In this document: positions 4,366 through 14,572 of the stretch, one piece after another
Numbering within the stretch: position 1 is the first letter of the stretch
Layout of the letters: each line of letters begins with the position of its first letter
Virus record (IMG/VR): IMGVR_UViG_3300036790_000447
Coordinates: 1 to 23,915 of that record
Reading direction: 5' to 3' (one strand)
From: a virus
DNA length: 23,915 nucleotides
Position numbers and translations under genes: made by a program
The notes under the pieces: generated by a model
Databases searched by the model: none
The model's input: only the letters and a program-made list of their open reading frames with translations
Told to the model about the DNA's origin: nothing

Positions 4366-4926
4366 ATGGCCGCTGGCGACCTCACCGATCTCGATACCGT
4401 CAAGGCCTGGCTGGGCGTCACCACCACGACCTACGACGCCCAGCTCGGCGGCCTGATCACCGCCGTCTCCAGCTTCGTCGCCAACTACCTCGGGCGGCAG
4501 CTGCTCAGCGCCAGCTACGTCGAGACCTATCGCGGCAACGGCCAGTCGGTGATGCTGCTGCGCAACTTCCCGATCACCGCGGTGGCGAGCGTCGCCTTCG
4601 CCGGCCGCACCGTCACCACGGCGGCGGACCCGGTTGCGCTCACCAGCGGCTTGCTGTTCGACGACCGCACGCTGCAGCTGGTCGGCGGCCGCTTCCCGAT
4701 CGCCCTGCCGGTGGTGGTCAGCTACACGGCCGGCTACGCCGCCGCGCCGGCCGACGTCGCCCAGGCGGCCGTGGAGCTGGTGGGCGAAGCGTTCCGCCGC
4801 CGCGACCGCATCGGCCTCGCCTCCAAGAGCCTTGGCGGCCAGGAGGTGATCGCCTTCAGCCTGAAGGACATGAACGACACCGTCCGGGCGCTGCTGGCGT
4901 CCTACCAGGTGCTGGCGCCCTTCTGA
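4366..4926 (+). CDS. Head-tail connector protein (HK97 gp6-like)
   Basis: This 186-aa protein starts MAAGDLTDLDTVKAWL and continues with LGGLITAVSSFVANYLGR. That is the helix pair typical of gp6-like head-tail connectors, which form a ring below the portal. A central beta-rich segment (TYRGNGQSVMLLRNFPI, VASVAFAGRT, LVVGGRFP-like strands) and a C-terminal helix (AAVELVGEAFRRRDRIGL) also match that family. The start at 4366 is set by AAGGAG at 4354-4359. The open frame extends upstream to 4276, but that part translates the inverted repeat and is not protein-like. Its stop overlaps the next start by one base (TGATG), indicating translational coupling. Confidence 0.85.
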   Translation: MAAGDLTDLDTVKAWLGVTTTTYDAQLGGLITAVSSFVANYLGRQLLSASYVETYRGNGQSVMLLRNFPITAVASVAFAGRTVTTAADPVALTSGLLFDDRTLQLVGGRFPIALPVVVSYTAGYAAAPADVAQAAVELVGEAFRRRDRIGLASKSLGGQEVIAFSLKDMNDTVRALLASYQVLAPF

Positions 4927-10771: not shown

Positions 10772-11509
10772 ATGTCCATCACGCCCTTCGTGCCGCCGAG
10801 CTTCCTCACCAGCCTGCCGAGCGGCATCTGGTCGGGCGTCGACGGACTGCCGGTGCTGCCGTTCCTGCCCGGGCAGTCGGTCGGCGTCTCGAAGTCGCCG
10901 AAGTGGTCGACCACGGTCGTCCGCGCCGCCTCGGGGCGCGAGCGGCGCACGCCCTACTGGAGCTTCCCGCTCTGGCAGTTCGAGCTGCAGTACGAGGTGG
11001 TGCGCCAGCGGCCGACCACGGCCGAGCTCGCGGCGATGTGGGAGTTCTTCAACGTCGCCCAGGGCCAGTATGCGCCGTGGCTGTTCGTCGATCCTTCGGA
11101 TTGCGCGCTGCCCACGAGCGCCCTTCTCGACGCGTCGGGCCAGCCGATCACCGACAGCTCCGGGGCCATCATCACCGACGGGTCCTCGACGCCGGTGAGC
11201 TACCCGTTCGCGGTCGGCGACGGCGCGACCACCCAGTTCCAGTTGACGCGCAGTCTGAACAGCTTCGCCGAGCCGGTCTACGGCGCCTACCAGCCGCTCG
11301 TCCTGGAGAACGGTGCGACCGCCGGCGCGCATACGGTGGCGGGTGGCAAGGTGACCTTCAGCGCAGCGCCCGCAGCCGGCCATGTGCTCTCCTGGTTCGG
11401 CCACTACTATTTCGGCTGCCGCTTCGCGCAGGACGACCTCACCTTCGAGCAGATCGTCAGCCAGCTCTGGGCCGGCAAGTCGCTGAAGTTCACCTCGCTC
11501 AGGGTATGA
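10772..11509 (+). CDS. DUF2460 distal tail protein (GTA gp12-like)
   Basis: This 245-aa protein fits the DUF2460 family, a distal tail (tail-tip ring) component of gene transfer agents and related siphoviruses. Supporting features are the N-terminal SP(K)WSTTVVRAASGRERR segment, WSFPLWQFELQYEVV, the AELAAMWEFFNVAQGQYAPW loop followed by FVDPSD, and the later GDGATTQFQLTRSL strand pair. GGGAAGGGAG ends three bases before the ATG. In GTA-like clusters this gene is followed directly by DUF2163; here about 2.1 kb of other DNA separates them. The last codons (FTSLRV) end five bases before the start of a decayed DUF2163 copy. Confidence 0.85.
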   Translation: MSITPFVPPSFLTSLPSGIWSGVDGLPVLPFLPGQSVGVSKSPKWSTTVVRAASGRERRTPYWSFPLWQFELQYEVVRQRPTTAELAAMWEFFNVAQGQYAPWLFVDPSDCALPTSALLDASGQPITDSSGAIITDGSSTPVSYPFAVGDGATTQFQLTRSLNSFAEPVYGAYQPLVLENGATAGAHTVAGGKVTFSAAPAAGHVLSWFGHYYFGCRFAQDDLTFEQIVSQLWAGKSLKFTSLRV

Positions 11510-11514
11510 CCCCC

Positions 11515-11607
11515 ATGAAGACGCCGATCGACTCGGCGTCACCGTCGCGCTGCTCAACGATGGCACCGACTTCGCAATGATTGATGTCTAAAGCTCACCC
11601 CTAACGG
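11515..11607 (+). pseudogene. Decayed 5' fragment of a second DUF2163 gene
   Basis: Starting at ATG 11515 the sequence matches the beginning of the intact gene at 13619. The first 26 bases align with the intact gene's first 26. There is then a 16-base deletion relative to it, and another 50 bases align (ACCGTCGCGCTGCTCAAC is identical in both). By eye about 62 of 76 aligned bases agree. The conceptual peptide TVALLNDGTDFAMIDVY corresponds to TVALLNGGADFAMVDLY in the intact protein. One further missing base produces a TAA at 11588-11590. Weaker similarity (AAG-TCAC-CCTAAC) may run to about 11607. It sits exactly where the intact DUF2163 gene would be expected, so it marks the left edge of the accessory insert. 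Confidence 0.8.
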
Positions 11608-11633
11608 CGGTGCGGTCGCCGTTAGGGGTGAGC
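11593..11633. repeat. Perfect 17-bp inverted repeat at left edge of the accessory cassette
   Basis: The arms 11593-11609 and 11617-11633 are exact reverse complements, separated by a 7-base loop (gtgcggt). No T-run follows (gggcggtaag), so it is not a standard intrinsic terminator, though it could act as one weakly or insulate the cassette from the late operon. It begins at the end of the DUF2163 remnant and lies about 115 bases before the first cassette gene. Confidence 0.85.
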
Positions 11634-11747
11634 GGGCGGTAAGATGGTATGCGCCCATCCGCCGAACGCTGACGTTGTCGCAAAAAGAAAGCTTTGGTTG
11701 ACGTGCGGCCCCATATAAGAGCCAGTTGGGGTGAGGAGCTACCACGC

Positions 11748-12455
11748 GTGCCACCAACGGCGGCAAACAGCGAAGCTGTGGTTGAAGCGCTTTTCGAAGT
11801 GCGGTTCACGACGTCGCTCTTCCAGGATCTGATAGTCGGGAATCTGGCGGCGAATTGGGCTGACTGGTCGGCGGCGCGGACGCCGTTGGCCGCCATGCCC
11901 GCTGCGATGCGCCTGGCCGATCCGAATCTGGCGGCGATGCCCACGATCGAGTTGCGCGACCCGACCGGACGGCGAATCGTCAAAATCGGAGAAGCTGTTC
12001 TCTCCTACCATCGAATAACGGCCTACCCGCTCTGGCCAGATTTCAAGCAGGAGATTGAGAAATTTCTAAATCAAGCGATCGAGCGCCTACCACAGTTTCG
12101 GGCCACTCGTTCCGGATTGAGGTACGTCAACGTCTTCAATAAGAAGAAGCATGGCGTTACCGACCTCAGCGATCTGGATATTCAGGTCCTGCTCGCGGGA
12201 AAACAGGTGCAGCCGCCTTTGCTGATCAATTACAGACACACCCAGGGGCTCGAGCTGGAGATCATGGCTAGGCTTGCGTCACGGGAATTCGTTGACCAAA
12301 TGCTTTTTCCGGATGCGGTGTGCGTGGCCGACTTCGACGCGTACACGCCGAATCCCACGACTTGGACGTCGTCACGGCCGATAGCGCGTTGGCTTGAGCG
12401 CGCACACGGTTTGGTAAAACGTGAATATATAAAGGTGATAGGATCTCAATCATGA
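11748..12455 (+). CDS. TIGR04255 family protein (accessory cassette gene 1)
   Basis: This 235-aa protein matches my memory of the TIGR04255 family, a sporadically distributed bacterial family of unknown function. Residues 9-20 (EAVVEALFEVRF) are the family's N-terminal signature. AYPLWPDFKQEIEKF (92-106), RATRSGLRYVN (118-128) and the C-terminal WLERAHGLVKREYIKVIG (215-232) are its other conserved blocks. GTG 11748 is chosen over upstream TTG 11694 and GTG 11703 because AGGAG at 11734-11738 sits nine bases before it and the protein then starts close to the family's usual point. No signal peptide or membrane span is present. It overlaps the next gene by ATGA. Base composition is lower in GC than the phage genes, consistent with acquisition. 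Confidence 0.75.
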   Translation: MPPTAANSEAVVEALFEVRFTTSLFQDLIVGNLAANWADWSAARTPLAAMPAAMRLADPNLAAMPTIELRDPTGRRIVKIGEAVLSYHRITAYPLWPDFKQEIEKFLNQAIERLPQFRATRSGLRYVNVFNKKKHGVTDLSDLDIQVLLAGKQVQPPLLINYRHTQGLELEIMARLASREFVDQMLFPDAVCVADFDAYTPNPTTWTSSRPIARWLERAHGLVKREYIKVIGSQS

Positions 12456-13003
12456 TCCTCGGCGGTGCAATCAACATTCCCCCGCCGACCGGCGGCGAAA
12501 TCTGGAGCGTGCTCGCGCGCCCACGAGCGAGCGTGACGGCGCCTGCACTCTGGGCGGCCTCCACTATTCGAGATCCGTCAGTTATCCAGATCACGATGCC
12601 GCCAGCTATTCTGACGATCGATCGCTACGCTAAGCTATCGTCTGGTTGGGATGGCTATGACGGTGTGACGCCAAAGACCTCGACGGTGACCGCGGCGAAG
12701 CGACTCTATTGGGCGCTCCGCGAACTTGCGATCGTCGATCCCGATGTCCAGGTCGCCGGCGACGGCGAGCTGAGTCTAGTCTGGAATGCACCGCACGCGC
12801 ATTTCGAGATTGGCGCGGATGCAGATGGCGGCGTCAGCTATTTTGGCCGCAGCTCATCGCGCGCGCGGCCAGTTATGGGTGAGGTTGACGAGCACTTCGA
12901 CTCACTGCCGGTAGAAGTCTGCGATTTCTTGTCCGCGGTCCGACAATGGCAGAATGCGAGTGCGAAGAGGAATCTCAGAGCGAGCACCCGGGCCCTGGTG
13001 TGA
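12452..13003 (+). CDS. GWDG-motif protein of unknown function (accessory cassette gene 2)
   Basis: This 183-aa protein starts within the stop of gene 1 (ATGA) and is therefore probably translationally coupled. Residues 57-72 (DRYAKLSSGWDGYDGV) and 99-112 (VQVAGDGELSLVWN), followed by HFEIGADADGGVSYFG, form a pattern I have seen in small uncharacterised bacterial proteins: a GWDG motif, a helix, then strands with DG...W. No enzymatic residues can be assigned. The first 45 residues are less conserved in character. No signal peptide or membrane span is evident. It ends by GTGA overlap with gene 3. Confidence 0.72.
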   Translation: MILGGAINIPPPTGGEIWSVLARPRASVTAPALWAASTIRDPSVIQITMPPAILTIDRYAKLSSGWDGYDGVTPKTSTVTAAKRLYWALRELAIVDPDVQVAGDGELSLVWNAPHAHFEIGADADGGVSYFGRSSSRARPVMGEVDEHFDSLPVEVCDFLSAVRQWQNASAKRNLRASTRALV

Positions 13004-13440
13004 TCGTGGCTGGAGAGCAGATGCTACGGCTCTGCTATTTCTCCGAGCACATGGAGCGCGACGGGACCCTCAAGGCTGCCGCTATTCGAACGGACGAATT
13101 GACGCGCCAAGTAGACGGCGAGCCACAAGGACGTGGCTTGTCGGTGGCTCGCGAAGCCCACACCTCTGAGGAGCAACTCGAAGAGAAGGCGCGCAACTTG
13201 CGGGTAGCGTCGCCCACTCAGCGCGCCGAAGTTTGGGTCTACAAGTTCAGCGCAGACGACATCCGGCAAGTGCTACACAACGATAACGAAAGAGCAGTTT
13301 GTCTCGTAGATCGAGCGTTGCCGAACGATTCGTCACACGCCGAAATCTGGGGCGCGAAAGCCGGACGCGACAGAGGTCAACTCCGGGCTATCCGGGACAA
13401 GATCCTCCCTCTGCTACGGCGGTCACACCGCGTCGCTTAA
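13000..13440 (+). CDS. Unknown protein (accessory cassette gene 3)
   Basis: This is a 146-aa protein if it starts at GTG 13000, which overlaps the stop of gene 2 as GTGA. The frame is open back to ATG 12946, which would add 18 residues rich in Glu/Cys and overlap gene 2 by 58 bases; an ATG at 13021 is also possible. Recognisable features are RGLSVAREA (about 45-53), AEVWVYKFSADDIRQV (76-91), LVDRALPND with HAEIWG (102-118), and a basic C-terminus. A GxSV segment early and an HAxIxG near the end recurs in small uncharacterised proteins. I cannot name a family. It is the last gene of the cassette; only a weak CCGCC/GGCGG pairing follows, with no clear terminator. Confidence 0.65.
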   Translation: MIVAGEQMLRLCYFSEHMERDGTLKAAAIRTDELTRQVDGEPQGRGLSVAREAHTSEEQLEEKARNLRVASPTQRAEVWVYKFSADDIRQVLHNDNERAVCLVDRALPNDSSHAEIWGAKAGRDRGQLRAIRDKILPLLRRSHRVA

Positions 13441-13618
13441 GGCGGACGCGATCAACTCCCTTAGGGGCGCAGTCCCGCCGCCTAGTTTCCTCTTCTAGTC
13501 GGCCGTGGGCCTCATCACAGCGAGCCTGCAGGTCGCGGTAGTCACCAACGACGGGCGCGCTCGCTGCCGCGGCGACAGATGCCTCCGCGCGCCAATCACC
13601 TATTTGCGGTTCTGACAG
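13441..13618. other. Right flank of the accessory cassette, no clear gene
   Basis: These 178 bases separate the cassette from the intact DUF2163 gene. No convincing plus-strand gene is present. The last codons before the DUF2163 start can be read as ITYLRF-stop, which resembles the FTSLRV-stop end of the DUF2460 gene and could be a remnant of a second DUF2460 3' end; the match is too short to be certain. On the minus strand an open frame reads DYRDLQARCDEAHGRLEEE, which is helix-like but runs on antisense through DUF2163. The DUF2163 start has no good ribosome binding site here. Confidence 0.4.
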
Positions 13619-14572
13619 ATGAAGACCCCGATAGATGCGGCCTCCGCCGGCGCGGGTGCCACCGTCGCGCTGCTCAACGGCGGCGCGGACTTCGCCATGG
13701 TCGACCTCTACAAGGTGACGCTCAACACCCAGAGCGGCACGCCCGCCATGATCCGCTGGCATGGCGGTCCGATGAGCGCGCCGGTCAGCTTCGCGGCGGC
13801 GGCGGGCCAGAGCACGTCCGCCGATGGGACCTACCAGGCCGGCCCGCTGATCGACCGCGGCAAGATCACCACCAAGCTGGGGCTGGAGGTCGCCACCTTC
13901 GACATGAAGATCTCGACGACCGGCGCCGACCTGATCAACGCCGCGCCGCTCGCCCCTTTTGCACAAGGCCGCGGCTTCGACGGCGCGACGGTGGTGCTCT
14001 ACCGGGCCTTCCTGCCGACATTCGCCTCGCCGATCACCGGGCTCACGGTGGGGTTCTCCGGCCGTGTCACCTCGGTGAAGGACGTCTCACGCACCGGCTT
14101 CACGCTGACCGTCTCGGCCTGGACCGTGCTGCTCAACGTCAACATGGGCCCGGACGTCTTCCAGGCCGGCTGTCTGAACACCCATTACGACCCGGACTGC
14201 GGGCTCGATCCGACCGCCTTCACCTTCGCCGGCGCTGCCGCAGCTTCACCCCCGCCCACCGCTACGTCGTTCGCCACGACCAGCTCGGCGGTCACCGCCA
14301 ACGGCGACCACTACTACGACAAGGGCACGGTGACCTTCACCTCAGGCGCCAACGCCGGCCTCAGCCGCACGGTGCAGACCTACGCGGGCGGCGCGTTCAG
14401 CTTCGCCTTCGGCTTTCCGTTCGCGCCGCTCGCCGGAGACACCTTCACCGCCTTGCGCGGCTGCCTGCTGACGCTCGCCGATTGCGAGGCGCAGCGCACC
14501 GTGCTCGACGCCGAGCAACATTTCCGCGGCCAGCCGTTCACGCCGCCTGCCGTCACCCCGATCGGCGGATGA
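13619..14572 (+). CDS. DUF2163 tail protein (GTA gp13-like, BR0599 C-terminal domain)
   Basis: This 317-aa protein belongs to the DUF2163/phage BR0599 type, a hub/baseplate component of gene transfer agents and related phages. The early part is beta-rich. The middle contains FQAGCLNTHYDPDCGL (about 180-195). The C-terminal end has the diagnostic Cys pair and Phe-x-Gly signature: GCLLTLADCEAQR then HFRGQPFTPP (about 280-308). The paired cysteines are typical of the family and may bind metal. Its stop overlaps the next start by ATGA. Its 5' end is duplicated as a decayed fragment at 11515, showing that DNA was inserted upstream of it. Confidence 0.85.
   Translation: MKTPIDAASAGAGATVALLNGGADFAMVDLYKVTLNTQSGTPAMIRWHGGPMSAPVSFAAAAGQSTSADGTYQAGPLIDRGKITTKLGLEVATFDMKISTTGADLINAAPLAPFAQGRGFDGATVVLYRAFLPTFASPITGLTVGFSGRVTSVKDVSRTGFTLTVSAWTVLLNVNMGPDVFQAGCLNTHYDPDCGLDPTAFTFAGAAAASPPPTATSFATTSSAVTANGDHYYDKGTVTFTSGANAGLSRTVQTYAGGAFSFAFGFPFAPLAGDTFTALRGCLLTLADCEAQRTVLDAEQHFRGQPFTPPAVTPIGG

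Follow-up and report, generated by a model that had tools for sequence, protein, structure and literature searches.

A three-gene insertion in the tail module of a phage

The DNA analysed here, which we refer to as the window, is a stretch of 23,915 nucleotides from a viral record (IMGVR_UViG_3300036790_000447). Inside its late structural operon lie three plus-strand genes, at positions 11748–12455, 12452–13003 and 13000–13440, which agree with the open reading frames and coordinates proposed in a first-pass annotation of this sequence. Gene 1 encodes a 235-amino-acid member of the TIGR04255 family; it begins with a GTG codon that has GGTGAGGAG upstream, and an alternative TTG start is found at position 11694. 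Gene 2 encodes a protein of 183 amino acids with a GWDG motif. An ATGA at 12452–12455 forms its overlap with the end of gene 1, and an AGGA-like site precedes its start by 8 nt. Gene 3 would encode 146 amino acids if translated from GTG at 13000, or 139 amino acids from ATG at 13021. The first-pass annotation took all three genes to be strictly coupled in translation, and the GTGA overlap at 13000–13003 is indeed present. However, the GTG at 13000 lacks a Shine–Dalgarno sequence, and the ATG at 13021, with GGAG five nucleotides upstream, makes the better start and would leave a gap of 17 nt. The evidence thus supports strict coupling between genes 1 and 2 alone; for gene 3 the GTG start is doubtful, and so is its strict coupling to gene 2.

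The insert is bordered on the left by the gene for a DUF2460 tail protein (10772–11509, plus strand; PF09343, 120 bits) and on the right by an intact gene for DUF2163, the baseplate hub (13619–14572, plus strand). The latter matches PF09931 with 66 bits and PF09356 with 45 bits; Pfam describes PF09931 as the N-domain of the hub, which together with PF09356 confirms the assignment. This intact gene shares 55–70% identity with most relatives. Twenty related viral loci contain both DUF2460 and DUF2163, some of these loci being near-identical to each other; the two genes are neighbours in all 20, and none carries such an insert. The spacing between the two genes is 0–17 nt in most related loci, and is 97 nt up to the start of the match in L023 and L024. 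Because the pair is adjacent in all 20 loci, the three genes of the window represent an insertion relative to its kin, as the first-pass annotation had held. Their GC content is 0.54–0.62 compared with about 0.70 in the surroundings, so they are also lower in GC, as had been noticed; at third codon positions the values are 0.657, 0.679 and 0.660 for genes 1, 2 and 3, respectively, compared with 0.935 for DUF2460 and 0.906 for DUF2163. We conclude that the three genes are of foreign origin in the window phage. Extra genes of different composition, placed between genes that are adjacent in relatives, are one mark of a phage moron; a promoter and terminator of its own are another. No sigma-70-like promoter or T-tailed terminator was recognised at the ends of the cassette, Rfam returned no match, and the non-coding right flank (13441–13618) is without significant match to relatives.

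Two related loci have non-coding and partly repetitive DNA between DUF2460 and DUF2163, of 110 nt in L010 (4891–5000) and 273 nt in L011 (4728–5000); in the L011 spacer, a repeat resembling CAAGCAGCGAGCG...GCGGTAGGG occurs several times. These spacers indicate that the junction tolerates inserts.

A broken copy of DUF2163 marks the left junction

Between DUF2460 and gene 1 we found what is left of the start of an ancestral DUF2163 gene, a decayed stretch that corresponds to its first ~35 codons (~100 nt; 11515 to ~11617, plus strand). The remnant has suffered an out-of-frame deletion of 16 nt and a further deletion of 1 nt, and it runs into a TGA stop codon at 11578–11580. Positions 11535–11590 are 80% identical to positions 13655–13710 of the intact gene. 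In alignments with the DUF2163 starts of relatives the remnant reaches ~11617, and the match of its tail part was equalled in 0–1 of 1,000 shuffles (compared with L003, L004, L007 and L012).

The end of the remnant is overlapped by a perfect 17-bp palindrome with a 7-nt loop (11593–11633; z = −8.1), the only perfect inverted repeat in the window with arms of at least 12 and a short loop. The DUF2163 remnant contains the left arm and the loop; the right arm repeats this sequence in inverted orientation. DNA repair is known to leave scars in the form of fold-back copies, and the palindrome is probably one of them, left where the ancestral DUF2163 was broken. We dropped readings of the palindrome as a terminator, as the end of a mobile element or as an integron attC site, since the alignment with relatives shows that it derives from the DUF2163 remnant. 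We searched upstream of the right-hand DUF2163 copy for a matching remnant of DUF2460 and found none. Together, remnant and palindrome would record the entry of an accessory cassette at an essential tail gene of which an intact copy was kept.

We also considered that the contig might be an assembly chimera that joins two related phages inside DUF2163, which would make the position of the operon in the tail module an artefact. The record is metagenomic, the start of DUF2163 is duplicated with 20% divergence, and the palindrome sits exactly at the junction, all of which speak for this reading. However, the left copy, with its two deletions and stop codon, is decayed and is no piece of a live gene, and a fold-back copy is a scar type known from repair; the three genes, moreover, recur in another viral contig regardless of how this one was assembled. 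A chimera is thus very unlikely.

Gene 1 belongs to a scattered family with no described function

The first-pass annotation likened gene 1 to TIGR04255 (NCBIfam 'sporadTIGR04255'), and the profile search places it in this family with 48.5 bits (E = 9.8e-13) against a curated cut-off of 30 bits. The match covers residues 9–135 of the protein and positions 5–137 of the 252-position profile, so that gene 1 fits the profile in the N-terminal half only. Nevertheless, it keeps the invariant R-x-G-x-R-Y-x-N-x-F, D-x-D and H positions of the family in a multiple alignment, the latter two of which are C-terminal. Gene 1 also matches phrog_5464 in PHROGs (E = 2e-9). TIGR04255 is a scattered family without a described function. 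Searching the open-access literature, we found no paper that names it; the system may be described under another name. Ten further loci exceeded the TIGR04255 cut-off, with 76–153 bits.

An AlphaFold model of the gene 1 homologue in the viral contig L033 showed a confident alpha/beta protein (pLDDT 83.5, pTM 0.81). A fold search of the PDB with this model returned AdoMetDC/prozyme, TBP and PYL with TM-scores of ~0.3 and rmsd values of >10, and we rejected all three as too weak to name the fold. An unnamed viral protein, A0A515MGR4, matched the model with TM-scores of 0.54–0.61. Gene 1 is thus predicted to adopt a compact alpha/beta fold that faintly resembles TBP and helix-grip proteins.

The same three genes occur in a second viral contig

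L033 is a distant phage contig of 49% GC whose nearby genes encode a peptidase M15 and a DUF2335 protein. In it we identified genes for a TIGR04255, a GWDG and an HAEI protein in the same order as in the window, with lengths of 234, 186 and 153 amino acids compared with 235, 183 and 146. Gene 2 of the window matches L033 P0009 with a BLASTP E value of 6e-4 (0 of 2,000 shuffles; z = 6.3), and gene 3 matches L033 P0010 with an E value of 1e-5 (2 of 2,000 shuffles; z = 6.4). Crossed pairs of gene 2 and gene 3 served as negative controls and were equalled by 1,712 and 1,534 of 2,000 shuffles. At the level of sequence, the similarity of the two gene 2–3 pairs is low but significant. The GWDG motif that had been pointed out in gene 2 is present in the L033 homologue, and gene 3 shares G-[LI]-S-V-x-R and HAEI motifs with the 153-amino-acid protein. 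Gene 3 had been listed as unrecognised, and searches of Pfam, NCBIfam and PHROGs placed it in no family above the cut-off; its AlphaFold model reached a pLDDT of 36.

The first-pass annotation had named, as the observation that would speak against a joint system, that homologues of genes 2 and 3 are never found beside TIGR04255 genes elsewhere; L033 holds all three side by side. This second trio, and the three-gene shape of every TIGR04255 locus described below, make a chance assembly of unrelated genes extremely improbable, although GWDG proteins do stand alone in other phages. Such lone proteins, with GWDGYGA and DGEISIEW motifs and without TIGR04255, were seen in L066 (2285–2740, minus strand), L053 (500–727) and L050 (2749–3255, minus strand). 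A search for the GWDG DNA pattern matched 22 viral loci, and TIGR04255 was found in 0 of the 22. GWDG proteins apparently form a common, uncharacterised family.

The pair of genes 2 and 3 found in the window was seen in only one other locus among the 11 that we compared, L033. Single-protein scans of viral contigs with genes 1–3 and of genome contigs with gene 3 found nothing, and a scan of genome contigs for DUF2163 gave no match. Searches by tblastn of phages (genes 1 and 3) and of plasmids gave weak or chance matches, except for TIGR04255 on two plasmids; a match in Variovorax overlapped unrelated frames and was discarded.

A constant first gene is followed by exchangeable gene pairs

To define the cassette, we required gene 1 to be followed within 20 nt by two small genes on the same strand, with a total length of 1.4–1.8 kb. 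The comparison comprised 11 distinct loci, namely the window and ten loci in phages, viral contigs and plasmids that were found by their similarity to gene 1 or its homologues. TIGR04255 was followed by two small same-strand genes in 11 of 11 loci, a count that speaks for this sample, gathered by gene 1 similarity, and not for frequency elsewhere. Gaps between the genes ranged from −35 to +15 nt and total lengths from 1.45 to 1.72 kb. With the trio of L033, this architecture upholds the earlier view of the three genes as one unit.

The two small genes differ between loci. Six loci (L028, L032, L034, L036, L039 and L041) share a second class of gene 2–3 pair, made up of a ~110-amino-acid protein, with an N-terminus that on reading by eye is often hydrophobic, and a ~205-amino-acid protein with QGD and SNxCD motifs. 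L027 carries a third kind of pair, which resembles the second class only faintly in its motifs. In L043 and L040 the third gene is HEPN-like: that of L043 matches HEPN (PF05168) with 27.4 bits against a Pfam cut-off of 22, and that of L040 has no Pfam match and weakly resembles its counterpart in L043. When we inspected the translations, the catalytic RX4-6H motif was missing from both, with RNDCDYDD in L043 and RVQADYKTH in L040, which weakens the idea that these genes encode RNases. Gene 3 of the window showed no relation to the HEPN-like third genes (hhalign probability 0.1%; z = −1.1 and −0.9).

In an all-against-all matrix, gene 1 showed similarity between almost all loci, and the similarity of gene 2 and of gene 3 was confined to members of one class; the pair shared by the window and L033 had nothing significant in common with the other classes. 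Judged by these comparisons, genes 2 and 3 switch class together. In a tree of gene 1, L033 groups with L028 and L036 (support 0.80; 42–44% identity) and not with the window. L033 thus combines a gene 1 close to that of L028 and L036 with the gene 2–3 pair of the window, which would point to recombination between pairs and gene 1; given a small tree with long distances, we regard this pattern as suggestive. The loci thus share a constant gene 1 joined to an exchangeable gene 2–3 pair, and this arrangement recurs in unrelated mobile elements.

Cassettes often occupy sites typical of conflict genes

In L028, L034 and L036 the cassette lies directly behind an integrase, each named from sequence, and in Pseudomonas phage VW-6S it lies between the CI repressor and the integrase. 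In Pseudomonas phage Dobby, a member of the P2 group, the cassette lies at the end of the record that carries the integrase, where it adjoins the portal gene. In P2-like phages of E. coli the interval between gpA and the portal gene is a cos-proximal defence hotspot that holds old, tin and other anti-phage genes (PMC9122126). The Dobby cassette likewise sits beside the portal, whereas the window phage is of a different type and carries its cassette in the tail module. phiCTX, a relative of Dobby, has a cytotoxin gene that Dobby is without (PMC7454045). Elsewhere, the neighbours of the cassette are AbiJ and a resolvase in L027 and a SocA/Panacea antitoxin in L032; VapC and cas6 lie near it in L043. 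Such settings and company are typical of conflict and lysogenic-conversion genes.

Several of these loci are incompletely annotated. In Dobby (L041, 1090–2786) the full TIGR04255 frame spans 1090–1854 and is annotated only as its C-terminal part, 1483–1854; gene 2 is annotated from an internal start. The trio is without annotation in the near-identical record OQ658368 (L042, 990–2686). In VW-6S, a 46-amino-acid 'XerC integrase' (L039, 4411–4551) corresponds to the C-terminal portion of the cassette's small gene 2 product, and the label is likely to be a misannotation. On the Methylocystis plasmid of L027, the interval between AbiJ and the cassette contains two short fragments of WGR domains (4468–4706).

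The company that the cassettes keep could also suit an addiction module that stabilises a prophage or plasmid and is not aimed at phages, with gene 3 as toxin, gene 2 as antitoxin and gene 1 as regulator. The genes are small and overlapping, genes 2 and 3 travel as a pair, and cassettes occur on plasmids and beside VapC and Panacea. However, three genes with a constant gene of 235 amino acids differ from ordinary two-gene toxin–antitoxin systems, and the genes of the window match no known toxin or antitoxin family, and we therefore consider this reading unlikely. A function unrelated to conflict, such as in lysogen physiology, DNA transactions or help against host defences, seems improbable to a similar degree. 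The predicted fold of gene 1, in its faint likeness to TBP and helix-grip proteins, would be compatible with binding of a ligand or nucleic acid, but the recurrent placement beside integrase, repressor and portal, the defence and toxin–antitoxin neighbours and the exchange of the gene 2–3 pair, which is typical of conflict systems, argue against it.

A candidate three-gene conflict system

We hold, with moderate confidence, that the insert belongs to a mobile three-gene cassette that is an undescribed conflict system, most likely anti-phage; this activity is predicted. Several findings weigh against this reading: the window cassette sits among late structural genes without a recognisable sigma-70 promoter, its gene 2–3 pair recurs in one other locus at low similarity, gene 1 fits its family profile in the N-terminal half only, and the HEPN-like third genes are devoid of RX4-6H. 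PADLOC gave no credible match to the window proteins, the best being gene 3 to PDC-M20B (E = 0.0067, 13.6 bits), with none for genes 1 and 2. This result and the literature search are in line with the candidate undescribed system that the first-pass annotation had put forward. The cassette would protect the lysogen, most likely against phage. Gene 1 may engage an infection-related ligand, as the sensor or scaffold common to all cassettes, and the gene 2–3 pair may act as an effector with its own control protein. Exchange of the pair would change the output, and the window would carry the GWDG and HAEI version. The roles might also be reversed, with gene 1 acting and the pair sensing. More tentatively, three-gene anti-phage systems with TIGR04255 as their constant sensor could form a whole family so far undescribed, whose members exchange a cognate pair of effector and control protein like a cartridge and which temperate phages and plasmids have spread over Pseudomonadota, Campylobacterota, Bacteroidota and Deinococcota. 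Heading a three-gene unit turns the TIGR04255 orphans into one testable system. Natural variants for comparison are offered by the window and L033, VW-6S, Dobby, SNW-1 and Thermus, and swaps of the cartridge-like pairs between them could tell the sensing part from the acting part.

Among known systems, the cassette would be a kind of phage-borne accessory conflict cassette, and the chance is real that it is an anti-phage system not described before. Tha, a prophage-borne anti-phage system with a HEPN protein (PMC11087260), resembles the two TIGR04255 cassettes that have HEPN-like third genes. However, these genes lack the RX4-6H motif, the version in the window has no HEPN protein, and the gene architecture is different. 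Like Tab and other phage morons (PMC10884400), the insert in the window is of foreign composition and is not conserved in relatives. It differs from them in having no recognised promoter or terminator, and in consisting of three co-travelling genes that recur in plasmids and in several types of phage.
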